Shown piece after piece: positions 44,320-63,057 of a stretch of 64,000 bases of DNA. The notes under the pieces were generated by a model, which worked only from the letters and a program-made list of their open reading frames with translations, did not search any database and had not been told where the DNA came from. Source of the DNA: an uncultured Oscillospiraceae bacterium (GTDB lineage: Bacteria > Bacillota > Clostridia > Oscillospirales > Oscillospiraceae); the NCBI GenBank assembly GCA_934569045.1, contig CAKTJX010000009.1, positions 3,864-67,863 on the forward strand. Direction: 5' to 3'. Made by a program: the position numbers and the translations under genes. How positions within the stretch are numbered: position 1 is the first letter of the stretch; each line of letters begins with the position of its first letter.

Positions 44320-45824
44320 AAGTGGATAAAATTTCCCCGTGCGGGGGATGACCTGTAGGGTTCCCATGCGGCGATCACCGACATAATTTCAATCCACATC
44401 CCCCGTGCGGGGGATGACCGGTGTGCTGCCAAAGGCACTGACTCCCCTGACCATTTCAATCCACATCCCCCGCACGGGGGATGACGCAGTGCGTCAACCA
44501 CGGAGCTTCCGTTCTTGACATTTCAATCCACATCCCCCCGCACGGGGGATGACAACACCGGGAAGCCATGCAGGAGGCCCGGAAAGAATTTCAATCCACA
44601 TCCCCCGCACGGGGGATGACTCAATCAGCTGATCGTCGATCACGCGCCATTCGTATTTCAATCCACATCCCCCGCACGGGGGATGACTTATAAGATCGAA
44701 ACTTAAGATCACGAAAATCATATTTCAATCCACATCCCCCGCACGGGGGATGACGTATGATCCAGTAGAATCGGCCTTACTTATGGTATTTCAATCCACA
44801 TCCCCCGCACGGGGGATGACAGAATGAGAGCCAGAATCATACGATTTGGAAACAATTTCAATCCACATCCCCCGCACGGGGGATGACGGTGATGCTGTCG
44901 ATCCAGACAGGGTACAGCCTCATTTCAATCCACATCCCCCGCACGGGGGATGACTCATGTATCCCAGTTTTTTATTTGGAAACCGGATATTTCAATCCAC
45001 ATCCCCCGCACGGGGGATGACCCACCTGCGCTTACGTTGCCCGTTATGTTCTCAAATTTCAATCCACATCCCCCGCACGGGGGATGACCCGCATGATTTT
45101 TGCGCTCTTCGTTCTGTTGCCAATTTCAATCCACATCCCCCGCACGGGGGATGACGCTGCCGGTGCGGGTGGATCGAGGAGGAGAGTGGATTTCAATCCA
45201 CATCCCCCGCACGGGGGATGACATTCTTAATCCTGATTCTGTAGCTAAGGATGGTATTTCAATCCACATCCCCCGCACGGGGGATGACGCCAGCGCAGCT
45301 GTATCTCCACCGGACCTGTGGCATTTCAATCCACATCCCCCGCACGGGGGATGACTAAGCTGGAGCATTCCCGGCAGCACCCAGTGCAATTTCAATCCAC
45401 ATCCCCCGCACGGGGGATGACCGGGATTCACTCCGCCGGGGCAGATGCCCCGGTAATTTCAATCCACATCCCCCGCACGGGGGATGACATCTTGGCGGTA
45501 ACCGTGTTCCCATTTCGGTCTCTATTTCAATCCACATCCCCCGCACGGGGGATGACCAACTCTTTCTAAGCGTGACCTGCAACTTTTTTGATTTCAATCC
45601 ACATCCCCCGCACGGGGGATGACGCGGCCCAATGTGTCTAAGACTTTGGCCCAGTGATTTCAATCCACATCCCCCGCACGGGGGATGACTCATTTTCGGC
45701 GTCTTCTCTGCATTTGCAGTTTGATTTCAATCCACATCCCCCGCACGGGGGATGACGCTATAGTTTTTCTTCTCCTGTTAATCTTGCTCTCATTTCAATC
45801 CACATCCCCCGCACGGGGGATGAC
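44320..45824 (-). CRISPR. Type I-C CRISPR array, 23 repeats and 22 spacers
   Basis: The 33-base repeat, read on the minus strand, begins GTCATCCCCCGTGCGGG and ends GGATGTGGATTGAAAT; the GTGGATTGAAAT end is typical of type I-C. Spacers are 33-36 bases and all look different. The leader-proximal repeat is 45792-45824. The last repeat (44320-44352) is degenerate in its second half, the next (44386-44418) has the inner GTGC reversed to GCAC, and the one at 44520-44553 carries an extra C. crRNA ends would be made by Cas5. Open frames across the array are artefacts of the repeat. Confidence 0.97.
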
Positions 45825-45997: not shown

Positions 45998-46288
45998 TCA
46001 GAGGAGGAGGGGCCCCTCCGGGTCGTAGCCGGGGTTTACCCCGTAATGACGGATGCGCGTCTGGTAGTTGCTGCCCAGGTTATAGATGCGCAGGCTGTCC
46101 TTTTCCGGGTCCATGATGGAAAGGAGCTTCCCCTCCAAGCTCCGGAGCTGGGCCGCGTCCAGGTCGCATTCAAACACGCTGTTCTGCACCCGCTGACCGT
46201 AGTTGACGCACTGCTTGGCAATCCTGCGCAGTCGGCGGCGGCCTGCCCCGTCCTCTGTATTGACATCGTAACTGATCAGAACCAGCAT
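45998..46288 (-). CDS. cas2: CRISPR-associated endonuclease Cas2
   Basis: 96 residues, a ferredoxin-like fold. MLVLISYDVNTEDGAGRRRL holds the conserved Asp after the first strand, and VQNSVFECDLDAAQL and DSLRIYNLG are typical of I-C Cas2. With Cas1 it integrates spacers. It starts five bases after the cas1 stop, and the array leader follows. Confidence 0.95.
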   Translation of the reverse strand: MLVLISYDVNTEDGAGRRRLRRIAKQCVNYGQRVQNSVFECDLDAAQLRSLEGKLLSIMDPEKDSLRIYNLGSNYQTRIRHYGVNPGYDPEGPLLL

Positions 46289-46292
46289 AGGC

Positions 46293-47324
46293 TCACTTCC
46301 ATAAAAACGGCGGGTAGCCGTCCAGGTCTCCCCGGAGGCAGCGGGCCAGGAGCAGGGCCTGGACATAAGGCACCAGCCCCCAGGGGATTTTCTCCTGCAA
46401 ATAGGGATGGGTCAGAGAATCCTGCTTCATTTCCTGCCAGGCCTTCAGGAATTTCCGGCGGCCATCCTCTGTCAGCAGAACACTGCCGCTCTCTTCAAAC
46501 ACAAAATCCTTCGCCCCAAGCTTTCGGTTGTTGATACAGCTCAGGACCAGGCGGTCTGCCATGCAGGGCCGGAGCTCCTCCATCAGATCCAGCGCAAGCG
46601 AATTTCTCCCCGGGCGGTCCCGGTGGAGGAAGCCCACATAGGAGTCCAGGCCAACCGACTCCAGCGCGGCGGCGCAATCATTGGCAAGCAGGCTGTAGGC
46701 GAAGGACAGCAGGGCGTTCATGGGGTCCAGCGGCGGGCGGCGGCTGCGCTGGCGGAAGAAAAAGGTCTGCTTGTCCCCCAGAATCCGATCATCCAGGACG
46801 GAAAAATAGGCTGTGGCCGCCGCGCCCTCCAATCCCCGAAGGTTTTCTTCCTCCTGGGTCTGGGCAATATCCGCCTGACAGCCCCGAAGCACCTCGCAGG
46901 CATCCTGGAGCTTCTGGCCGTCCAGGCGCAGGCCATGGTCCCGCAGGGTCCGGTGCACCGCCCAACGGCCATTATACACCTTCCCAAGGATCATATTCCG
47001 AGCAATCCGGACCCGCTGCTCCGGGTCATCCGCGACGCGATACTGTGTCCGCCGAAGCAATACATTTCCACTGGATTCCCCGGTGACCCTGGCCAGGAAG
47101 CGGCCCCTGGGGGTGTGAAAGCGAAGGTTAATATTCCGCTCCGCACAGGCACCCATCAGCGCCGGACTGGCCCCCGGATAGGTAAAGCAGCAGATTCCCT
47201 CCAGCGTATGCAGGGGAAAGCGGCCCTTTTCACAGTCCCCCTGGCGAACCACCACATTCTCCCCATCCAGCGCCAGATAGCTGTCCTCAGTCAGGACAAA
47301 CAAGGTGTTGAGCAGCTTTCTCAT
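46293..47324 (-). CDS. cas1: CRISPR-associated integrase Cas1 (type I-C)
   Basis: 343 residues. The N-terminal beta domain (MRKLLNTLFVLTEDSYLALDGENVV) is followed by the helical catalytic domain; the acidic/His residues lie in GLEGAAATAYF (Glu), VGFLHRDRPGRNSLALDLME (His, Asp/Glu). The ATG overlaps the cas4 stop (ATGA). It catalyses spacer insertion with Cas2, assisted by Cas4. Confidence 0.96.
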   Translation of the reverse strand: MRKLLNTLFVLTEDSYLALDGENVVVRQGDCEKGRFPLHTLEGICCFTYPGASPALMGACAERNINLRFHTPRGRFLARVTGESSGNVLLRRTQYRVADDPEQRVRIARNMILGKVYNGRWAVHRTLRDHGLRLDGQKLQDACEVLRGCQADIAQTQEEENLRGLEGAAATAYFSVLDDRILGDKQTFFFRQRSRRPPLDPMNALLSFAYSLLANDCAAALESVGLDSYVGFLHRDRPGRNSLALDLMEELRPCMADRLVLSCINNRKLGAKDFVFEESGSVLLTEDGRRKFLKAWQEMKQDSLTHPYLQEKIPWGLVPYVQALLLARCLRGDLDGYPPFLWK

Positions 47325-47983
47325 GGCAACACCTCCATTCGCTTCAAATAGGCCTCCACAGAGCCCGCCTTCTTCATTTTCGGCAGGCACAGCTCCTTCA
47401 AAGAGCAGGCATTGCAGCCCTTCTGGGGGCGAACCTCCGGCGTATAGCCCCGGCTTGCCAAATCGTGCATCTCCTCCAGCGCCGTCCGGACCGTCTGCCG
47501 CAGCTCCTGGGTGAAGAGCACCTGCTCCCGCTGGTGGATCTCCCCATAATAAAGGGCTCCGGAATCAATCTGGCAGCACAGCATTTCCTCCAGGCACATC
47601 GCCTGACCGCAGAGCTGCGCCGCGTCGCAGGGGTTCTGCTTTGGCTGCCCGTGCTTGTATTCCACCGGGAAGGGCCGCCACAGCCCATCCCAGCCGGACA
47701 TCACAATTCCATTTGCATCCCGCAGAAATTCCACCGCGTCGCACTGGCCGGACACCCCAAGCTCCGCTGAGGATACCCGCACGCCCCGCAGAATGATCCG
47801 GTCCCCCCGCTTCTCGTTCCGGCCCTCGTCATGTACGTTCCGATGCATCAGCTGCCCGTCCACCGTGCGGTAGTTCTCCTGCCACAGATTCTCAATATGA
47901 ATCAGCGCCCACTGCCTGCGGCAGAACAGGAAGTGCTGAAGGCCGGAGAGCTGGAGGTAATCAGCCTCGTCGTAGATGCTCAC
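47321..47983 (-). CDS. cas4: CRISPR-associated nuclease Cas4
   Basis: 220 residues of the RecB-like family. QLSGLQHFLFCRRQWALIHI gives the first cluster cysteine, and KGCNACSLKELCLPKM the three C-terminal cysteines of the 4Fe-4S site. GQCDAVEF and PVEYKHGQPKQN provide the nuclease Asp, Glu and Lys. Cas4 trims prespacers so that the PAM is respected. The start is GTG at 47983, overlapping the cas7 stop (GTGA). Confidence 0.95.
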   Translation of the reverse strand: MSIYDEADYLQLSGLQHFLFCRRQWALIHIENLWQENYRTVDGQLMHRNVHDEGRNEKRGDRIILRGVRVSSAELGVSGQCDAVEFLRDANGIVMSGWDGLWRPFPVEYKHGQPKQNPCDAAQLCGQAMCLEEMLCCQIDSGALYYGEIHQREQVLFTQELRQTVRTALEEMHDLASRGYTPEVRPQKGCNACSLKELCLPKMKKAGSVEAYLKRMEVLP

Positions 47984-48873
47984 CCCATCCGTGTCACCGT
48001 GACCCCAGCGGGGATTGCGTCTTCCTGGACTGTAACCATATAGTCATGGAAGCTCCGGGCGACCTGGACTTCCTTCTTGCGCTGGATGGAAACCGCGTCG
48101 AAGAGCTTCCAGGCCGGAGCGTTTCCGAATTCGGAATCATGCTTAAAAACGATCAGCTCCCGGACGGCCATATTGCCCCGGGCGGCGGAATGGTCCAGCT
48201 CAAACATATTCAGGATGGCCTGCCACAAAAGTTGCAAATCCGCCTCCGAAAATCCGGTGGTCCTTTTTGCCAGATTGGCCGAGACGTAGCCCTCGCAGCG
48301 GTAGAGCCCATAGGGAATAATGTATTTGCGGCCCATTTCCGTATTTTTCTGTGCGGCATCCTCCTCTTTGGTAATGGCCACTCTGGTAATCGTCACCTCC
48401 TGGGGAATGACAGGCTCCACAGACCGGGCAAACCCCAGCTGCACCGGGCCGCGCACCTGGCCGCAGTTCAGCGCTGCCTTGGTAAAGGTGGTCATAACCG
48501 CGCCAAAGGTGCGGATATCATAGAAATTCCGGCACATAAAGTCCCGGATTTTTTCATCCAGCTCCGGGTCCTTTTTCTTGGCATCCTTGATGGTTTTGTC
48601 GCTGATGCCCAGATATTCATAGGCTTTGGCATCCGCGCGGTTCAGGGGGACGCTGTCCTTGATGTAAATTCCGAAGCCCGGCTCCCCCTCCTTCACCGCC
48701 TCCACATAGCTGCGGATTTTCCGTTTGAGGCACACGTCCGTCACCAGGCCCAGGTTGGTCTCCGGGTCAATGCGGGGCATATTGCCCGCGTCCGGGTCTC
48801 CGTTGGGATTTCCGTTTTCCACATCGAACAGGATTACAAATTCATAGCGGTTTTGAATGGCATTCTCAAACAT
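47980..48873 (-). CDS. cas7: Cascade backbone protein Cas7 (Csd2)
   Basis: 297 residues. RYEFVILFDVENGNPNGDPD at the N-terminus and TDVCLKRKIRSYVE are signatures of Csd2-type Cas7, which coats the crRNA guide in copies along the complex. NFYDIRTFGAVMTT is another family block. It follows cas8c by 14 bases and has an AAGGAGG site. Confidence 0.96.
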   Translation of the reverse strand: MFENAIQNRYEFVILFDVENGNPNGDPDAGNMPRIDPETNLGLVTDVCLKRKIRSYVEAVKEGEPGFGIYIKDSVPLNRADAKAYEYLGISDKTIKDAKKKDPELDEKIRDFMCRNFYDIRTFGAVMTTFTKAALNCGQVRGPVQLGFARSVEPVIPQEVTITRVAITKEEDAAQKNTEMGRKYIIPYGLYRCEGYVSANLAKRTTGFSEADLQLLWQAILNMFELDHSAARGNMAVRELIVFKHDSEFGNAPAWKLFDAVSIQRKKEVQVARSFHDYMVTVQEDAIPAGVTVTRMG

Positions 48874-48887
48874 TTTGGTCGTCCTCC

Positions 48888-50615
48888 TTAATTCTTTTCT
48901 GTTTCAGATTTGCTGTAGCGCTTTTGTGTCTGGTGGTAATAGCCCAGCTGGAAGATGCCCTGATCACTCAGACTCAGGTGGGCCGGATAGCTCTCGGTAA
49001 TGGCAGCTAGGATGCTGCCCATCTGCTTGCTGTAATAGATTCTGAGCCGGTCATCCAGCTTTCGCAGATGCTTTTCCGCCAGCTTCAGCAGCGTGGGGAA
49101 TACGACCGCCGGAGTCGTACAGGCGGAGGTAAAATACTTGTCCTTAATCGTTGTGTTGATTCCCGGATTGGCCTGTAACTGCAAGCCCTCCAGTACGGAA
49201 AACAGACGGCCCAGCAGGTACGGCAGATATTGGGTCTGCGCATTCAGTTCCACAGTGAGTGCCTCCTTATAATCGGGATCATTCCCGTTTCTCATGAGAT
49301 ATGCTTTGATGATGGCCGCCTTCCCACGGGGCACATCCCGCTCCGCCTTGACACGGAGCATGGTCTGCTGGTACAGCGTCGCGGGATACCGGCCCCCTGT
49401 CAGGATCGCCCGCAGGGTATCCCCGGCCATTTGCGGGCTTGCCGCTTTGTCTCGGCTTTTCGGGTTCACCGTCTCCCGCAGGAGCCGCCACAGGGGGAGA
49501 TTCTCGTCCCGGTCAAAGGCAGGGCGCACAATCCGCAGCCTCTCAAAATGCTGTCGAAAATGCTCTGCCAGCGCTCCGAAACTGTCCTGGATAAAGAATC
49601 GGACCGAGATTCTGGCAGCGTTCGGTGCCAGCCCCAGCACATAGAAGTGGTTCTCCGGATGGATGGGCAGTGCGTTCCAGTCGCAGCTTTTTCCCGCACA
49701 GAGCGCGTCCATAACGCCGGTGAGATCCTGTTGGGTGACTGTATCCCAATCCAGGAAGCAGCTGAACAGATCCTGGTACTGGGTCTGGGCATCCTCCGCC
49801 CAGTAGACCACCGTTGTATCTCCAAAGCGCCGGGTGTGGTCTCCATCACTGAGCAGCTGGTTTAGGGCTGTCGTATAGGCGAAGGCCGCATAGCGGCTGA
49901 TGGGCGCGTTGAGATTCTGCTCCCGATTGTAGGAGCAAAAAGCCGGCGCGTTAAAGGAAATCAGCGCCGCCCCAGAGGACTGGGCGCCATAGACTTTTTT
50001 GATGGAGGGATGGACCTTTTCCGGTACGGCCAGATCGCCTGTAACCAGGCACCGCATTTTCATGCCGCCCGCCTCCGGCTCCTGCGCGGCCTGCCATACT
50101 CTGTCAAACAGATCATACTGATCCGGCAGCTGTCCCCGGAACGTAAAGGTCAGGTTACCTCCGGCGGTAACCTCCCCGTATACCGGCGCCAGAATCGGGT
50201 CTTCCGCCGCGTGGTCCGGGTTCCATATGTCAAAGAACCGGCAGATCGCCTGGGCAAACGCGTCAGCGTGCACCGGCTCCAGCAGATTCCTGTGGAACTT
50301 CCCCGCTGCCGCGAAGCAGTTCTTTGCCCGCTCCGGGTTGTCCTTCTGGTCAACCCCCAGCAGGTAGGCGGAATTGTCCCAAAGAAAATTGGGAGAAATA
50401 CCAACAGTTCGCTTGACCGGGGCGGGCATATCCAAGTAGCGGGGAACCGCCTTTCCCTTTGCATCCGTTGATTCCAGGGGCAGAATGCCCAGCAGCTCCC
50501 CCTGCTCCCCCAGGTCCAGGGCGTAGCCAATGCGGACCTGGCTTCTTCCGGGCTTTGCAATGGCCCCTTTGGCCGCCATCGCCTCATAGTATGCGGTCAG
50601 CGCTTGCAGAATCAT
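48888..50615 (-). CDS. cas8c: Cascade large subunit Cas8c (Csd1)
   Basis: 575 residues, the PAM-sensing large subunit of type I-C, whose gene also usually contains an internal start for the small subunit Cas11c. MILQALTAYYEAMAAKG, SPNFLWDNSAYLLG, ISFNAPAFCSYNREQNLNAP and VVYWAEDAQ are characteristic. The ATG overlaps the cas5 stop (ATGA). Internal ATGs in the last third could give Cas11c, but I cannot fix one from sequence alone. Confidence 0.95.
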   Translation of the reverse strand: MILQALTAYYEAMAAKGAIAKPGRSQVRIGYALDLGEQGELLGILPLESTDAKGKAVPRYLDMPAPVKRTVGISPNFLWDNSAYLLGVDQKDNPERAKNCFAAAGKFHRNLLEPVHADAFAQAICRFFDIWNPDHAAEDPILAPVYGEVTAGGNLTFTFRGQLPDQYDLFDRVWQAAQEPEAGGMKMRCLVTGDLAVPEKVHPSIKKVYGAQSSGAALISFNAPAFCSYNREQNLNAPISRYAAFAYTTALNQLLSDGDHTRRFGDTTVVYWAEDAQTQYQDLFSCFLDWDTVTQQDLTGVMDALCAGKSCDWNALPIHPENHFYVLGLAPNAARISVRFFIQDSFGALAEHFRQHFERLRIVRPAFDRDENLPLWRLLRETVNPKSRDKAASPQMAGDTLRAILTGGRYPATLYQQTMLRVKAERDVPRGKAAIIKAYLMRNGNDPDYKEALTVELNAQTQYLPYLLGRLFSVLEGLQLQANPGINTTIKDKYFTSACTTPAVVFPTLLKLAEKHLRKLDDRLRIYYSKQMGSILAAITESYPAHLSLSDQGIFQLGYYHQTQKRYSKSETEKN

Positions 50616-51274
50616 CTCAGCACCTCCCCGCTGTCCGCCTCCGGCACATGGAGCACGCCGCGCTCCAGCTTTGCCCGGAAGAACATGGGTAAAATATTCT
50701 CCGGGTCCCGGTAATCCATATCGTAGAGCATCAGCCCCAAATCTCTCGTCTCCTCCGGATAGGCCGTCGGAATCGGTCCCCCGGGCCAGGCTCGGAAAAA
50801 CGCGGGAAACTCCCGGACGCCGAAACAGGGCTGATGGTAGCACTGTCCCCGCTCCAGACGGCGGCGGAGGATATCGCGGAATTTCCCGGGATTGTCCGAC
50901 GGGCTTGCCGCCGGAGTCATATCAAACCGGGCCTCAATGACATAGTGAACCCCTCGCAGAACCGTTGCCGCCCGCTGCTGAATATCGTCAGAGGTGCACA
51001 GATACAGCTCCGTCTGTTTGCCGCTCATGGCCTCCCGAACTTTTTGGGCTGAAATTCGGCTTTTCACCTCATTTCGGCGGATCGAGGAAAACGCGATTGG
51101 GTTCAGAACATAGATGTTTAAAATCTGGTATCGCAGTCCGGGATGCCAGTAAATGCTTTCCAGCAGCCCCCTGGCCGCAGAAGGTGTCATCACATCGTAG
51201 CTCATGCGCTCCACCTTCAGTTCCGGGCGGGTGAACAAGGCGTAGTCGCCCCACACCTCCACTTTGATAGACAT
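50612..51274 (-). CDS. cas5c: Cas5c, crRNA-processing subunit
   Basis: 220 residues. In type I-C this protein replaces Cas6 and cuts the repeat hairpin, leaving an 11-base 5' handle. VEVWGDYALFTRPELKVERM, YDVMTPSAARGLLESIYWHP and GQCYHQPCFGVREFPAFF are typical of Cas5d/Cas5c. It lies 12 bases after cas3 and overlaps cas8c by four bases. No cas6 is present. Confidence 0.95.
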   Translation of the reverse strand: MSIKVEVWGDYALFTRPELKVERMSYDVMTPSAARGLLESIYWHPGLRYQILNIYVLNPIAFSSIRRNEVKSRISAQKVREAMSGKQTELYLCTSDDIQQRAATVLRGVHYVIEARFDMTPAASPSDNPGKFRDILRRRLERGQCYHQPCFGVREFPAFFRAWPGGPIPTAYPEETRDLGLMLYDMDYRDPENILPMFFRAKLERGVLHVPEADSGEVLR

Positions 51275-51286
51275 TGCTTCCCCTCC

Positions 51287-53440
51287 TTATTGAAATTCTG
51301 CCTGGCCGCCTGTCGGCTTCAGGTTCAGTCCGGTTGTTTCCTGGTAATAGCGGAGGTCCTCCAGAACCGCCGCGTTTTCTAAAAGCGGCGTGATGGCCCC
51401 CAATTGCAGGTATTCCCGATAGAGCTGCGGGTACACCGAGACACCATAGGGGCCCAGCTTTCGCATCAGCTGTCGGTCCGCGCTGCCATTGCGCAGCGCT
51501 TCTATGAGGGCTCTTCCCTGCCCTCTGGGAATATAGATTGTGCAGGTCTCACTTCCGATCATGTGAAAGCGCCTGGAAACGGTCTCAAAAGCCAGCTTTT
51601 GAACCAGGGCCATAATGTCCCCGGTATCCCGTTCCCGCTCTCCCTTCAGAAGATAATACAGGGTATCAAAATACAGCGTTACCGCCTCCGGCGAGGCCAA
51701 GTCCGCGCAGCGTCCCATTGCCGCCTTTGCCGCCGCGATCTGCTGGGACATGCCCCTTGGAGGCGGCTGTTCGGTTTCAAACAGATGGACCACACTTTCC
51801 TCCCGCGGCCGCTTTCCCTCCCGGTTGCACCGGCCTCCGGCCTGGATCATTGCGTCAAGGCCGGCAATCTCTCGGTATACGCAGGGGAAATCCACATCCA
51901 CCCCCGCCTCAATCAGGCTGGTGGAAATGACCCGGCATATCCTTCCATTCCGCAGGTCCTCCCGCACCGTTTTCAGGATTTGTCCGCGCTGTTCTGCCGT
52001 CATAGCGGTAGACAGGTGAAAGCGCCGCGTCTCCGGGAGCATTTCAAAGAGCCTTTGGGCCTGGTCCCGCCGATTCACAATGCAGAGAACCTGTCGTTCC
52101 CGCGAGAGGCGCTCCGCCAGGGCATCCTCCGAAAGGATGCCTTCCTGCTGATAAGTAACTCTGCGGAAAAACTGATGATTTTCCGCCCGATCCGGGCACA
52201 GCTCCAGAGCCCCCTGGGGAATCCACTGCCGAATCAGCGGCTCCAGCGATGGCTGCGTGGCCGTGCAGAGCACCCCGGTGCAGCCGTAATGTTTCACCAG
52301 CTCCGTAATGGCCCAGACGCAGGGGGACAGCAGATCCGGCGGCAGCATCTGCGCCTCGTCAAAAATCAGGACGCTGTTCGCGATGTTGTGCAGCTTCCGG
52401 CAGCTGGAAGAGCGGCTGCTGAACAGGGACTCGAAGAACTGGACTGCCGTTGTCAGGATGATGGGCGCGTCCCAGTTCTCGCAGGCCAGCATCCGTTTCT
52501 GATCCAGCAGGGATGGCTGATCGTCCTCTGTATTGGGGTAAATCAGGTTGGCGTAGTGGGCCACCACATTTTCCGGGCCGAATATCCCCTCAAATACCTG
52601 CTGGGTCTGCTCAATAATGCTGGTATAGGGAATGATATAAATAATTCTTCTCGGCGGGGCCACGTCCTTCCCATGGGCCAGCGCGTGGCGCAGCGCGAAG
52701 GCCATAGAGCTGACCGTCTTTCCGCCCCCTGTGGGAACCGTCAAAGTATAAAGTCCCCTGGGAAGGACCCCCTGGTCCATCAGCTGCCTCAGGATCTTGC
52801 AGCGGCGCTGATTCAGCGCTCCCTCCGGGTTCCACCAGGGGGCAATAAAATCATCCAGCCGCTTGCCGAGCGTTTCCAGATCATCGCCCAGCTCCCTGTG
52901 GACATGTCCCGCGGAGACAAAGGCCTCCGTATCCAGCCAGTCCGCATCCACAAGGCTGGAATACAGCATATGGGTGAAGAAGAAGGATTCCAGAATATCC
53001 TGCCTGGAATAGGCCGGCGGGGATGCCTCCGGAATCTGAATTTCCCGTGAAAAGGCGCTGTAGTCATCGATCTGCTTTCCGGGGCGGTATTTGAGCCTGG
53101 CCAGCAGGGTGGAGGACTCGTCCGTTCTGCTGCCCATATCCGGCAGCCCCGCGTGATGGCCCGCAATGCAAAAGGCGGCGGGATAATCTCCCAGCCTGGC
53201 AGCCTCCAGAGCACCGGCTGTAGAGTGATCCACCCGTTCCTTTCCGCCCCGGAGCCGCGCCTGGGCCCCGGAACCGAACTTTCCAATGTCATGCAGCAGG
53301 CCGCACCGGTAGGCCGTCTCCCCCGCCCCAAAGGGCGCGGCAAACTGTTCCGCCAGACGGGCCGTTCCCGTCAGGTGATCTTTCAGGAGCTGAACCCTGT
53401 CGCTGTCCGGCAGGGTATGTCCGAGAAACGTGGATTCCAT
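51287..53440 (-). CDS. cas3: Cas3 nuclease-helicase
   Basis: 717 residues. The N-terminal HD nuclease domain has CGLLHDIGKFGSGAQ (His50-Asp51), GRHHAGLPD-like CIAGHHAGLPDMG and a later His. The SF2 helicase has LTVPTGGGKTVSSMA (Walker A, Lys241), LIFDEAQMLPP (DEAQ box), LCTATQPSLEPL and the C-terminal QAGGRCNREGKR motif VI. It degrades target DNA recruited by Cascade. I place the start at the ATG of MESTFLG, preceded by AGAAGGTG; in-frame ATGs 33 and 45 bases upstream have no good site. First gene of the operon. Confidence 0.94.
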   Translation of the reverse strand: MESTFLGHTLPDSDRVQLLKDHLTGTARLAEQFAAPFGAGETAYRCGLLHDIGKFGSGAQARLRGGKERVDHSTAGALEAARLGDYPAAFCIAGHHAGLPDMGSRTDESSTLLARLKYRPGKQIDDYSAFSREIQIPEASPPAYSRQDILESFFFTHMLYSSLVDADWLDTEAFVSAGHVHRELGDDLETLGKRLDDFIAPWWNPEGALNQRRCKILRQLMDQGVLPRGLYTLTVPTGGGKTVSSMAFALRHALAHGKDVAPPRRIIYIIPYTSIIEQTQQVFEGIFGPENVVAHYANLIYPNTEDDQPSLLDQKRMLACENWDAPIILTTAVQFFESLFSSRSSSCRKLHNIANSVLIFDEAQMLPPDLLSPCVWAITELVKHYGCTGVLCTATQPSLEPLIRQWIPQGALELCPDRAENHQFFRRVTYQQEGILSEDALAERLSRERQVLCIVNRRDQAQRLFEMLPETRRFHLSTAMTAEQRGQILKTVREDLRNGRICRVISTSLIEAGVDVDFPCVYREIAGLDAMIQAGGRCNREGKRPREESVVHLFETEQPPPRGMSQQIAAAKAAMGRCADLASPEAVTLYFDTLYYLLKGERERDTGDIMALVQKLAFETVSRRFHMIGSETCTIYIPRGQGRALIEALRNGSADRQLMRKLGPYGVSVYPQLYREYLQLGAITPLLENAAVLEDLRYYQETTGLNLKPTGGQAEFQ

Positions 53441-53502
53441 TGCATGCACCTTCTGTTCTCTGCCGTATTTCATCAATACGATCAAATTTCTTTGTTATTT
53501 CT

Positions 53503-53531
53503 ATTCTAGCATCTTTTCGCTCTCTTGTATA
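53503..53531 (-). promoter_or_regulatory. Predicted cas operon promoter
   Basis: Minus strand TATACA (53526-53531), 17 bases, TAGAAT (53503-53508), about 60 bases before the cas3 start. An alternative is TTGAAG-17-TAAATT, with its -10 at 53558-53563, inside the putative Cascade target. Confidence 0.6.
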
Positions 53532-53540
53532 TAGTCAATG

Positions 53541-53578
53541 TTCATGAATGGGTATGTAATTTATTGTGAAAGTGTTCC
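53541..53578 (+). promoter_or_regulatory. Putative Cascade-binding autoregulatory site in the cas promoter region
   Basis: TTC (53541-53543), the type I-C PAM, is followed by ATGAATGGGTATG (53544-53556). The guide segment of the neighbouring solo-repeat RNA begins ATGAACGGGTAGG. Eleven of 13 bases match, and the two mismatches are at guide positions 6 and 12. The site abuts the -35 of the predicted cas promoter and covers the -10 of the alternative one. Matching stops after position 13, too short for target cleavage. Confidence 0.65.
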
Positions 53579-53597
53579 AACTTCAACCGCAAAAGAC

Positions 53598-53626
53598 TTG
53601 AAAGGAATCCGGGGGCATGTTAGAAT
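53598..53626 (+). promoter_or_regulatory. Promoter of the solo-repeat RNA
   Basis: TTGAAA (53598-53603), 17 bases, TAGAAT (53621-53626). The expected start, 6-7 bases on, falls at 53632-53633, the first base of the solitary repeat. Confidence 0.75.
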
Positions 53627-53632
53627 AAAATT

Positions 53633-53735
53633 GTCATCCTTGAGAACCGGGATGTGGGTTGAAATATGAACGGGTAGGGCTTTTGGCCCGCCTCGCGGCA
53701 CACAGGAACCATCCTGTATGCCGCATTTTCTGTCT
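53633..53735 (+). ncRNA. Putative crRNA-like regulatory RNA (CreR-type) for the cas operon
   Basis: A solitary 33-base repeat (53633-53665) keeps both ends of the array repeat, GTCATCC and GGATGTGGGTTGAAAT, matching at 23 of 33 positions with a changed loop; CATCC/GGATG can still pair. The last 11 bases would give the Cas5 handle. A guide-like segment starts at 53666 (ATGAACGGGTAGGGC). It ends in a terminator: GCGGCA-C-ACAGG, loop, CCTGT-A-TGCCGC (53695-53724), then ATTTTCTGTC. It is divergent from cas3, outside the array and with its own promoter. Regulation of cas by this RNA is inferred from the guide match at 53544. Confidence 0.7.
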
Positions 53736-53932
53736 TTCCCTGATTTTACCATTGCGGCTGTCCAGTAAACTTCCCTTTCTCTCTCCCCTCCAAAAAATCG
53801 TTCGTCCCCTTTTCCCCTCCTTCGGCAGGGTTCTGCCCCCGGCGCAGCCGAAAGCGGCATGTTCCGACGGGGTTTCGCGGGATTTGCAAAAATGCGGGAA
53901 AGTTCGTATTTTCTCGATATCGCATTGATTTC

Positions 53933-53960
53933 TTGACTTTTCCGCCGGATATCTTATAAT
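53933..53960 (+). promoter_or_regulatory. Promoter of the 3D-domain protein gene
   Basis: TTGACT (53933-53938), 16 bases, TATAAT (53955-53960). The stretch 53736-53930 upstream holds no gene I can support. Confidence 0.72.
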
Positions 53961-54042
53961 ATCCCCATCATTTGGCGAAACCGTCCGGAAGAGCGCAATT
54001 CCGGCAGAGAGAGAACTGCGGTGCCGGGAGGATGTGAAGCGA

Positions 54043-55044
54043 GTGCGGCGGTTGCTCTCTCTGGTGCTGGTGCCAGGGCTGTTCCTGGCGTCGGTGCTGG
54101 CGCAGAATGTATTTGCCACTACCTATGTGATCAACGACGGGGGACGGACCTTTTCCTGCACGCTGTACGCCGGGGATGCCCAGGCGGCGCTGAGCGCCGC
54201 GGGGGTGGAGCTGGCGGCGGCAGACGGCTACACCCGGGAGGCGGACACCATCACCGTCCGGCGGGCCCCCACGGTGGAGGTCATTTACCACGGGGTCAGC
54301 CAGACCGCCGTCACGGAGGAGGAGACGGTCCGGGCGCTTTTGGACCGGCTGGGCATCGTGCTGGAGGAGACGGACGTGGTGTCCTACCCCATGCAGACGG
54401 TGATGCAGCGGGGCATGGTGCTGCGGATCGACCGGGTGGAGAGCCGGGAGGAGACCTTCACCCGGGAGATTCCCTATGAAACACAGATTTGCGACGCGCC
54501 TGGGCTGCCGGAAGGGGTTCAGGAAACCCTGGTGGACGGACAGACCGGGGTGCTGCAATGCCGTGCCTGGGTGAGCTATGTCAACGGCGTGGAGACCCGG
54601 CGGGAAATATTGGAAGAGCGCCAGCTTTCCCCCGCCGTTACGGAGGTGGTGGCCCTGGGCTCCGGGGCTCCGGTGGAAGAAAAGGCCCAAGAGCTGGAGA
54701 TCTGCAACGGGGTCATCACCCTGCCCACCGGGGAGAAGCTGACCTATACGAAGGTGGACTACGTCCGGGCCACCGCCTACACCCACACTGACGAGGGCTG
54801 CACCACCACCACCGCCACCGGCACCACCGTCCGCCGGGGCACCGTGGCCGTGGACCCCCGATACATCCCCTACGGCACCAGAATGTTCATCGTGGCCTCC
54901 GACGGCAGCTATGTCTACGGCCTGGCCCAGGCCGAGGACTGCGGCGGCGACATCAAGGGCGACCGCATGGACCTATACCTGCCCACCTATGCCGAGTGCA
55001 TCGCTTTCGGACGGCGGCGCTGCACGGTGTATTTTCTGGGGTAA
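54043..55044 (+). CDS. Secreted G5/3D-domain cell-wall protein (YabE/Rpf-like)
   Basis: About 333 residues. A signal peptide (RRLLSLVLVPGLFLASVLA) is followed by two ubiquitin-like DUF348-type repeats (VINDGGRTFSCTLYAGDAQ, VEVIYHGVSQTAVTEEE), a G5 domain and a C-terminal 3D domain: VRATAYTHTDEGCTTTTATG, VAVDPRYIPYGTRMFIV and AEDCGGDIKGDRMDLYLPT supply the three conserved Asp residues. The 3D domain has lytic-transglycosylase-like activity on peptidoglycan. GGGAGG is 11 bases before the GTG at 54043 but only two before the GTG at 54034, so I prefer the former. YabE-type genes often lie next to rsmA, as here. Confidence 0.88.
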   Translation: MRRLLSLVLVPGLFLASVLAQNVFATTYVINDGGRTFSCTLYAGDAQAALSAAGVELAAADGYTREADTITVRRAPTVEVIYHGVSQTAVTEEETVRALLDRLGIVLEETDVVSYPMQTVMQRGMVLRIDRVESREETFTREIPYETQICDAPGLPEGVQETLVDGQTGVLQCRAWVSYVNGVETRREILEERQLSPAVTEVVALGSGAPVEEKAQELEICNGVITLPTGEKLTYTKVDYVRATAYTHTDEGCTTTTATGTTVRRGTVAVDPRYIPYGTRMFIVASDGSYVYGLAQAEDCGGDIKGDRMDLYLPTYAECIAFGRRRCTVYFLG

Positions 55045-60924: not shown

Positions 60925-63057
60925 TTACATATCGAAGGGCTCCATGCTCAGCACGGGGTGACCCTTTTCGGACAGGAAGTTCATCAGCTCTTCCGGGTCC
61001 TCGGTGCAGACGGTCTCATCGGCGATCATGTCGGTGAAGTTGTCCACGCCGTACATTTCCTTGGCAGTGGCATCCAGGCGCTCGCGGACCTGGTCCTTCA
61101 GCTCCTTGGGCATCCAGACGATACGGCCGGGGCCGCCTTCGGCTGCGATGAACTTCTTGGAGGAGATGAACTGCTTGCCGTGGCCCATGAAGCCGGGGGT
61201 CTGAACGCCGCCGCCGGTCATAGAGGCCATCTCGGAGAAGGTCATGCCCAGGGGGGTCATGCCGGCGTGCTCACGGCAGGTGATCACAACACCCATGGAG
61301 ACAGGCTCCACGCCGCAGATACACTCGAAGCAGCCGCAGGAGGTCATGGGGTCCTGGAACAGGGAGTACAGGGTCACGTGCTCCAGAGCGCCGTGAGAAT
61401 ACTTGGACACAGCGGCGTCCACATCCTCATAGCGGCCCAGGTGCTCATCGATGCAGTGCTCCTTGGGAACGATCTGGCAGGGACCGGTGGGGTCCAGCTC
61501 ATTGGTGGCCTTGGCATCCAGCCAGGACACGGCGCCGCAGAGGCCCAGACGCTCGGGGGTAACGATACATACATGGCTGGGGGAGAAGGCCTGGCACATG
61601 ATGCAGGTGTAGTAAACGGGCACAGACTCATCGGTCATGGACTTCAGACGGTCGTCACGCTTGTTGAACACGGCGTTGGCGGCAGCCCGCAGCTCCTTGT
61701 TCTTCTCGGCGTCCACAACGATGGTGACCTGGCACTTGTCCACAACGGCCTCGAACTCGCTCTTGACCTTAGCGTACAGCACCTCGCCGATGTGACGGAA
61801 CTTGAAGCCAGCCTCAAAGTCGGCCTTGCTGATACGGATACGGATCATGTCACGCTGACCGGTGTGCATCACGCCCTCGATGCAGTTCAGGTAGGAGTGG
61901 AACTTCCGCTCCATAACGGACTCGAAGTCAGGCTGCATGTTCTTGCCGGCCACGTCCACGGTGTAGGACATGGAGATCTTGGAGCCCACGGGGATCTCGT
62001 CGATTTCCGGTCCGATGACGGTGATCTTGTGATCCTCCACCTCGGCGGCTTCCTTGGTGTGCACCAGCTCGAAGCAGTCCACACGGGAGCCGTCCACTTC
62101 CACCTGCATATCGGGACGGCGAATAATCTCGCCCTCGAAAGCGGAAGCGAAGGACACGGGGATATCGATGTTGGTAATCTTGATCTTGATGTCCCGGGCC
62201 TCCAGAGAGGTGGCGTTGAACTTCTCCACGTCAGGCTGCACGATCAGGCTCTTGGGAACACGGTAGATGTTCTCCTGCTCGTTGGTGATGACGGGGAAGC
62301 CCAGGGCGATGGCGCCGGCGCCGCAGGCAACGATCACATCGTCCAGAGGGGCGAAGGCGTTGACGAAGGCGGGCACACGCTCCATGGTGTACTTCATCAG
62401 GCCGGCAGCGTCACCGGGCTGGATGTTGCCGAAGATCAGAGCGGCACGGACAGCAACGGACACAACGTGGATGACGGAGGTCACGTCCTTGCCCAGGGGG
62501 ATGACACGGACATTGTCGCCGGTCTTGTAGCCCTTCTCCTGGAGCTGATCGATGATGCCGCCCACCAGAGTGACCAGCATGCCCTGGCCCTGGTAGCTCT
62601 TCACCAGAGCAACGGCCTCGTCAGCGGTGGGCGCGGTGCCCAGGATGACGGGAACGCCGGGGATATCGCCGGTAACCAGGGGCACACCCAGGGAACGAAC
62701 CACGGCATCGGGCAGATGGCCGTAGCAGGGAGCCTCGTAGGGTGCGTCGTTGCCGATGTACTTCAGAACCTCAATGAATTCCGCGCACAGAGCGGTGGCA
62801 ACGCCGGACATAAAGGCATCGTTCAGGCGGTTGTTGCGGGTCATCAGGGTCTTGACCACGCCCAGGGCTTCCTTCAGCTGGCCCAGGGTCTCTACCTTGA
62901 CACCGGTGACGCCGTAGTAGCAGGGCAGGGAATAAGCGGTGCCGGGGAAGGACACGGCCTGGCCCTCACCGTACTGTGCGATGGCATTGTTGATGGCTGC
63001 CTCGGTGAGGCCGTAAACAGCATCGTTGCCGCCGAAAACTCTTTCAAATAAAGTCAC
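60925..63057 (-). CDS. acsB: Acetyl-CoA synthase (CODH/ACS beta subunit)
   Basis: 710 residues, the bacterial full-length form with the N-terminal CODH-contact domain. It joins CO, a corrinoid-borne methyl group and CoA to make acetyl-CoA in the Wood-Ljungdahl pathway. The A-cluster ligands are visible: Cys485, Cys488, Cys497 and Cys507 in CIMCQAFSPSHVC...GLCG hold the 4Fe-4S cubane, with the bridging Cys also in this set, and Cys574 and Cys576 in SCGCFECICG bind the distal nickel. The spacing equals that of the Moorella enzyme. It follows cooC by 11 bases. Confidence 0.96.
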   Translation of the reverse strand: MTLFERVFGGNDAVYGLTEAAINNAIAQYGEGQAVSFPGTAYSLPCYYGVTGVKVETLGQLKEALGVVKTLMTRNNRLNDAFMSGVATALCAEFIEVLKYIGNDAPYEAPCYGHLPDAVVRSLGVPLVTGDIPGVPVILGTAPTADEAVALVKSYQGQGMLVTLVGGIIDQLQEKGYKTGDNVRVIPLGKDVTSVIHVVSVAVRAALIFGNIQPGDAAGLMKYTMERVPAFVNAFAPLDDVIVACGAGAIALGFPVITNEQENIYRVPKSLIVQPDVEKFNATSLEARDIKIKITNIDIPVSFASAFEGEIIRRPDMQVEVDGSRVDCFELVHTKEAAEVEDHKITVIGPEIDEIPVGSKISMSYTVDVAGKNMQPDFESVMERKFHSYLNCIEGVMHTGQRDMIRIRISKADFEAGFKFRHIGEVLYAKVKSEFEAVVDKCQVTIVVDAEKNKELRAAANAVFNKRDDRLKSMTDESVPVYYTCIMCQAFSPSHVCIVTPERLGLCGAVSWLDAKATNELDPTGPCQIVPKEHCIDEHLGRYEDVDAAVSKYSHGALEHVTLYSLFQDPMTSCGCFECICGVEPVSMGVVITCREHAGMTPLGMTFSEMASMTGGGVQTPGFMGHGKQFISSKKFIAAEGGPGRIVWMPKELKDQVRERLDATAKEMYGVDNFTDMIADETVCTEDPEELMNFLSEKGHPVLSMEPFDM

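Follow-up and report, generated by a model that had tools for sequence, protein, structure and literature searches.

Two kinds of small RNA that borrow a repeat of clustered regularly interspaced short palindromic repeats (CRISPR) to guide an effector with a short match have been described. The cas-regulating RNAs (CreR) are named for subtypes I-B, I-E and V-A in one paper (PMC13131331) and assigned to 'Type I and Type V-A' in another, whose cited part does not name I-C (PMC12737573); their repression is relieved when the effector is withdrawn by CRISPR RNAs (crRNAs) or anti-CRISPR proteins (PMC12737573, PMC12948488). Here we describe a solitary, degenerate type I-C repeat followed by a short guide, located upstream of cas3 in a stretch of 64,000 nucleotides (hereafter the window) of an uncultured Oscillospiraceae bacterium (GenBank assembly GCA_934569045.1, contig CAKTJX010000009.1, positions 3,864 to 67,863 of the forward strand). 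Comparison with other I-C loci makes it very probable that this is a one-repeat, terminator-ended guide RNA gene of the CreR kind, which would hold the cas operon down through the I-C effector.

The second kind is CreA, the antitoxin of CreTA addiction pairs, which silences a toxin RNA. CreA of H. hubeiense (I-B) pairs at guide positions 1-5 and 7-11 with a site beside TTC; a change of any of these 10 nt cut transformation about 10^4-fold, while changes at 6 or 12, which take no part in the pairing, did not, and the creA of Haloarcula hispanica consists of one repeat and a T-rich terminator (PMC8501985). Solitary I-C-type repeats with their own promoter are also known from viruses, as solitary repeat units or Racr RNAs including RacrIC1 (PMC10651486). 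For a I-C system, the protospacer adjacent motif (PAM) TTC has been shown experimentally, and at least 27 matching bases are needed to kill (PMC8406640). Among the titles and abstract openings surveyed, no I-C cas-regulating element was found, and an earlier prediction of I-C members is possible. Shmakov et al. in 2023 reportedly described standalone repeats whose spacers partly match cas promoters in many type I systems, and also in phages.

A solitary repeat with a guide to the predicted cas promoter

The features of the element and of its target in the window are as follows.

53503..53531, minus strand: predicted cas promoter, TATACA-17-TAGAAT with TG before the -10, predicted start near 53496
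53541..53543, plus strand: PAM of the target, TTC, directly before the target
53544..53556, plus strand: target (protospacer) ATGAATGGGTATG, upstream of the predicted cas promoter
53598..53626, plus strand: predicted sigma-70-type promoter of the solo-repeat RNA, TTGAAA-17-TAGAAT with TG before the -10
53633..53665, plus strand: degenerate I-C repeat standing alone, with its hairpin preserved and 11 nt at its 3' end that resemble a crRNA 5' handle
53666..53678, plus strand: guide segment ATGAACGGGTAGG, 11/13 identical to the target
53695..53724, plus strand: terminator-like hairpin and T-rich stretch, in the minimum-energy fold, z -2.75

The solo repeat, GTCATCCTTGAGAACCGGGATGTGGGTTGAAAT, is 33 nt long and identical to the array repeat, GTCATCCCCCGTGCGGGGGATGTGGATTGAAAT, at 23 of 33 positions (1-7, 17-25 and 27-33), to the base as stated in a first-pass annotation made from the sequence alone. 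The identity is concentrated in the first 7 nt, the 3' stem arm and the handle; the middle is unlike the array stem, and the hairpin still folds. A search of the window for the blocks that the two repeats have in common, with 3 mismatches at most, recovered 21 array copies and the solo repeat; 100 shuffles gave none. The guide that follows differs from the TTC-flanked target at positions 6 and 12 only and matches at 1-5, 7-11 and 13, as had been claimed. No other window site behind TTC, TTT, CTC or TCC scores at least 8/10 against the guide, and when 2 mismatches are allowed the guide pattern has a single occurrence in the window, against 0.4 expected. The target lies at about -65 to -45 from the predicted cas start, with its PAM 9 bp upstream of the -35. 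From the predicted start at 53496 to the ATG of cas3 there would be a leader of about 56 nt, in which no separate reading frame or terminator was seen by inspection. There is little to suggest that promoter sequence was duplicated locally to give the guide of the window, since by eye the resemblance goes no farther than the guide at either end.

The promoter proposed upstream of the repeat is present as a predicted promoter, which stops at 53626, 6 nt 5' of the solo repeat; its score of 14.5 exceeds those of all 60 control segments sampled from that region. It should be noted that both promoter calls, for cas and for the solo repeat, are predictions obtained with an E. coli matrix. Downstream of the 13-nt guide, a small hairpin is followed by the larger one at 53695-53724 and then by the T-rich stretch. 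The terminator that the first-pass annotation had placed there stands in part: the hairpin belongs to the minimum-energy fold, but a strict terminator scan of 53400-54050 returned none, and the stem has an internal mismatch. Transcription is thus predicted from about 53633, ending behind this hairpin. No described RNA family in Rfam matched 53400-54050 up to E = 1.

As in CreR, a repeat-like RNA gene carries a guide of limited complementarity to a cas promoter, with the logic of autorepression. Unlike the CreR described so far in the cited texts, the subtype is I-C, a single repeat is followed by a terminator-like hairpin, and the regulation is predicted. We regard the element as a putative I-C member of the CreR kind because it would work like CreR and has those CreR features that a sequence can show: the degenerate repeat is ectopic, outside the array and at the cas locus, and the limited complementarity of its guide to the predicted cas promoter is flanked by a PAM. 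In addition, guide and promoter change together, which is a test added here, outside the published definition of CreR.

Guide and target covary across I-C loci

Solo repeats were picked upstream of cas3 in 189 distinct loci, blind to what follows them, and 26 of the 27 obtained have a site beside TTC or TTT that matches the guide in at least nine of ten positions (all ten in 19). In genomes other than that of the window, 25 of the 26 such repeats match a nearby site, with guides that differ between loci. When guides were swapped between loci, only 5 of 702 pairings reached nine matches and none reached ten; random 14-mers in the same regions reached nine in 14 of 1080 cases and ten in 3. A chance match was rejected on these figures (5/702 for swaps and 17/1080 for random 14-mers, at nine or more). 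If no PAM was demanded, the best site was preceded by TTC in 23 of 26 loci and by TTT in the other 3.

The loci came from one scan of genome contigs for Cas3 (68 loci) and from searches around members found there, which matched 394, 17, 200, 65, 150, 250, 347 and 246 overlapping genomes. At most the 30 best loci of each search were taken, and in the 394-, 200-, 150-, 250- and 347-genome searches the matched genomes outnumber those examined. From 229 sequences including the window, 10 without a located Cas3 N-terminus were left out, and merging of identical cas3 stretches among the remaining 219 gave the 189 loci, window included, 184 of which have at least 250 bp upstream. A solo repeat had to match the handle at 10/11 or better, to fold into a hairpin of -3 kcal/mol or better and to lie no farther than 1 kb from cas3 on its upstream side. 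Five loci (L018, L170, L174, L187 and L205) were set aside because more than two handle hits made them look like arrays, and too weak a hairpin removed 6 of the 33 repeats picked by handle alone, leaving the 27. Sites behind TTC, TTT, CTC or TCC were scored over ten bases, 1-5 and 7-11. One locus with a 10/10 match beside CTC, L153, lies outside the 27; L187, with a 9/10 match beside TTC, was added back in the tally of distribution.

The match is not uniform along the guide. For counts by position, the site was chosen with the position in question left out and a PAM demanded, and the one solo repeat with no matching site was omitted (n = 26). Positions 1, 2, 3, 4 and 5 match in 25, 26, 24, 26 and 25 loci, and positions 7, 8, 9, 10 and 11 in 24, 26, 23, 24 and 26. 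Position 6 matches in only 2 of 26 and position 12 in 6 of 26, so that mismatches concentrate at the two bases that the first-pass annotation had taken to be unread by the effector. Matching then declines over positions 13, 14, 15, 16 and 17 (23, 22, 18, 16 and 12 of 26) and is at background at positions 18-24 (4-8 of 26); a fade-out near position 17 would fit three five-base segments. The evidence that position 6 mismatches more often than neutrality predicts is weak (p 0.043), and no claim is made of it.

The pair L015 and L063 illustrates how the two sites change. Position 2 of the guide is A in one and G in the other, with the same change in the target; at position 12 only the target differs. 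The stems of their repeats have diverged and still fold. Across the loci compared, guide and target covary. The covariation test suggested by the first-pass annotation was passed strongly: other I-C loci show the arrangement of repeat, guide and PAM again but differ in their guides, which supports its proposal of an I-C equivalent of the CreR/CreA-type RNAs.

Promoter-like sequence before the solo repeats scores above controls from the same regions (medians 7.7 vs 3.2, Mann-Whitney p 9e-10, with the E. coli matrix and overlapping controls), and a terminator-like hairpin follows 23 of 27, where simple shuffles would give 3.0. The PAM side of the target faces the cas genes in 21 of 26. The target overlaps the predicted -35/-10 in L132, L191, L194, L201 and L204; in several loci besides the window it is situated before the -35.

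Some individual loci depart from this layout. L181 seems to have a second, degenerate repeat behind the guide, that is, a two-repeat form, which by eye the other solo repeats displayed do not have. In L179, a transposase-like frame (by eye) stands between the matched site and cas3. In L175, a frame of 186 aa resembling a DnaQ-type exonuclease (by eye) occupies -575 to -14 from cas3, and the matched site is farther from cas3 because this frame intervenes. In L108 (positions 61-620; also L263), a TTT-flanked match lies at the promoter of an 85-aa frame preceding the solo repeat, with a cas3-led operon, I-C-like by eye, beyond; from its sequence, L108 looks more like a CreTA/CrePA arrangement than like autorepression.

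How the RNA may act, and other explanations

Three things can be read from the sequences: a solo repeat with hairpin and handle, a PAM-flanked match of guide and target, and covariation of the two across loci. From there to the repression and release proposed in the first-pass annotation, we infer the following course. The handle would be released by Cas5c, and the RNA would load through it into the I-C effector, which may assemble in a short form on about 13-17 nt of guide. This complex would bind without cutting, the match being too short; binding without cutting is supported by the requirement of I-C killing for at least 27 matching bases (PMC8406640). RNA polymerase would then be blocked at the -35 side and cas repressed, with relief when crRNAs or anti-CRISPR proteins take the effector away.

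Several observations weigh against this reading, the patchy distribution and the predicted fold among the most serious. One hairpin-bearing solo repeat, L046, has no matching site; the promoter score reaches 10 in only 8 of 27 solo repeats; and in the window itself the minimum-energy fold pairs guide positions 7-13 with sequence 3' of the guide. In 5 of 26 loci the target faces the other way, 470-870 bp from cas3, and therefore not every member need act on cas. The distribution is patchy, with the element in 27 of the 184 loci that have at least 250 bp upstream. Besides the window, these come from the contig scan (5/63) and from the 17-genome (1/6), 200-genome (1/12), 65-genome (2/3), 150-genome (1/8), 250-genome (4/24) and 347-genome (12/26) searches; the 394-genome search gave 0/28 among new loci and the 246-genome search 0/13. 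At the centre of the 65- and 347-genome groups stands the genome of L062 (Candidatus Coprousia avicola), whose genus NCBI assigns to Coriobacteriales. The element was found in none of 8 named plasmid-borne I-C loci, including that of Nitratidesulfovibrio vulgaris (out of 37 plasmid records with a Cas3 relative), and among the matches listed no I-C relative of the window species exceeds 56% Cas3 identity.

It is conceivable that the RNA belongs to a CreTA-type addiction pair as its CreA antitoxin, in which case the promoter it targets would serve in the first place a small toxin gene or RNA and cas incidentally. The degenerate repeat, the match at 1-5 and 7-11 with 6 and 12 free, and the TTC PAM are a grammar shared with CreA (PMC8501985), the one-repeat form recalls H. 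hispanica creA (with a terminator-like hairpin here and a T-rich terminator there), and in L108, a distant member, an 85-aa frame and not cas3 follows the matched promoter. In the window, however, the promoter runs into cas3 through a leader of about 56 nt with no frame between, and no toxin gene was seen by inspection under the targeted promoter, although a toxin RNA inside the leader is possible. We give this explanation very little credence. Another difference from the CreA described is that matching across the I-C members reaches about position 17. Hardly more improbable is a Racr-like decoy or a leftover orphan repeat, which would jam Cas proteins by its repeat alone, the promoter match being incidental. 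Solitary viral I-C repeats that inhibit CRISPR are indeed described (RacrIC1, PMC10651486), and share with our element the repeat type and a promoter of their own. A decoy, on the other hand, needs neither the guide match found in 26 of 27 solo repeats nor the covariation, and Racr RNAs are encoded by viruses or prophages away from cas, whereas the guide of the window's element matches the cas promoter and the element adjoins cas3 in a complete I-C operon.

The RNA might also guide Cascade to the cas promoter and there raise transcription, or set the choice of promoter. The site of the window, like that of several other loci, is upstream of the predicted -35, where some bound proteins activate; the overlap with the predicted -35/-10 in the five loci named above argues for repression instead, as do the related RNAs of the literature, which repress in the cited texts. 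Activation thus appears very unlikely, and repression of cas by a CreR-type RNA remains the explanation that we prefer.

If this holds true, RNA-guided self-control of cas genes extends to subtype I-C. The loci would in addition be a natural data set for the guide positions under selection (1-5 and 7-11, more loosely 13-17, but not 6 and 12), and open the questions of the shortest guide tolerated by the I-C effector, of why short matches escape cutting, and of whether phages use the loop. Short natural guides ended by a terminator could also serve as templates for non-cutting gene silencing with I-C systems.

A Megasphaera pair and copies in prophages

Two related genomes, Megasphaera sp. NM10 (G004) and a member of the same family (G405), have Cas3 proteins 93% identical. 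In G004, guide and target are both upstream of cas3. In G405 the target is kept at cas3 and the solo repeat is absent there, lying about 0.44 Mb away beside a second copy of promoter and target, an array and, by eye, cas4-cas1-cas2-like genes; the I-C locus of G405 thus seems split (L233, 9788-9897, and L236, near 5987), cas3 and the genes that follow it having the target only. At position 7, guide and target share an A in G004 and a G in G405.

The pattern search that located the distant solo repeat of G405, run with up to 3 mismatches, gave one more solo repeat in each genome, with hairpin and guide and, by eye, promoter-like sequence and a terminator hairpin. Their guides differ from the target of their own host at positions 6 and 12 only, and have the base of that host at position 7. 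Both sit among phage genes (L231/L234 near 8960 in G405, L232/L235 near 9130 in G004): among ten neighbours compared with PHROGs, those in L234 include holin, endolysin and reverse transcriptase, those in L235 reverse transcriptase and a head decoration-like protein, and the remainder are of unknown function. Both prophage elements recur in viral contigs of IMG/VR (L240 and L239).

On sequence evidence, the prophage solo repeats of Megasphaera sp. NM10 and its relative are candidates for an RNA anti-CRISPR acting on cas transcription. The wider idea is that I-C systems of several bacterial groups run a built-in guide-RNA thermostat, and that temperate phages have copied it as an RNA anti-CRISPR that orders the host Cascade to shut down cas transcription and does not jam it; we consider this somewhat likelier to be true than false.

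Other viral hits were set aside. Seven further scans of viral contigs were made, one pattern each. Three were without a hit, among them that for the guide of the window, which thus gave no phage copy; the other four gave 13 hits, all taken as chance because they do not have the GGATTGAAA/GGGTTGAAA handle; the same applies to 3 of the 5 hits of the scan that yielded L239 and L240. Nothing among the INPHARED phages matches the prophage element of L231, and two phage records contain a Cas3 relative.

The cas operon and its surroundings

NCBIfam models identify in the window a complete I-C set, with Cas3 (core and HD models), Cas5c, Cas8c/Csd1, Cas7/Csd2, Cas4, Cas1c and Cas2, followed by the array.

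51287..53440, minus strand: cas3, start by inspection, open frame from TTG 53485
50612..51274, minus strand: cas5c, by NCBIfam
48888..50618, minus strand: cas8c (csd1), by NCBIfam
47980..48873, minus strand: cas7c (csd2), by NCBIfam
47321..47983, minus strand: cas4, by NCBIfam
46293..47324, minus strand: cas1c, by NCBIfam, start by inspection, frame searched from 47390
45998..46288, minus strand: cas2, by NCBIfam, start by inspection, frame searched from 46366
44386..45824, minus strand: CRISPR array, 21 repeats fitting the pattern, by repeat pattern search

Elsewhere in the window, a large frame at 60925-63057 (minus strand) resembles by eye acetyl-CoA synthase of the carbon monoxide dehydrogenase/acetyl-CoA synthase (CODH/ACS) complex; its best match in 245 genomes is 79% identical and belongs to G121, a genome without a Cas3 match at E 1e-60. 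In the array, one repeat (44520-44553) seems to hold a 1-base insertion, as judged by comparison of repeat coordinates.
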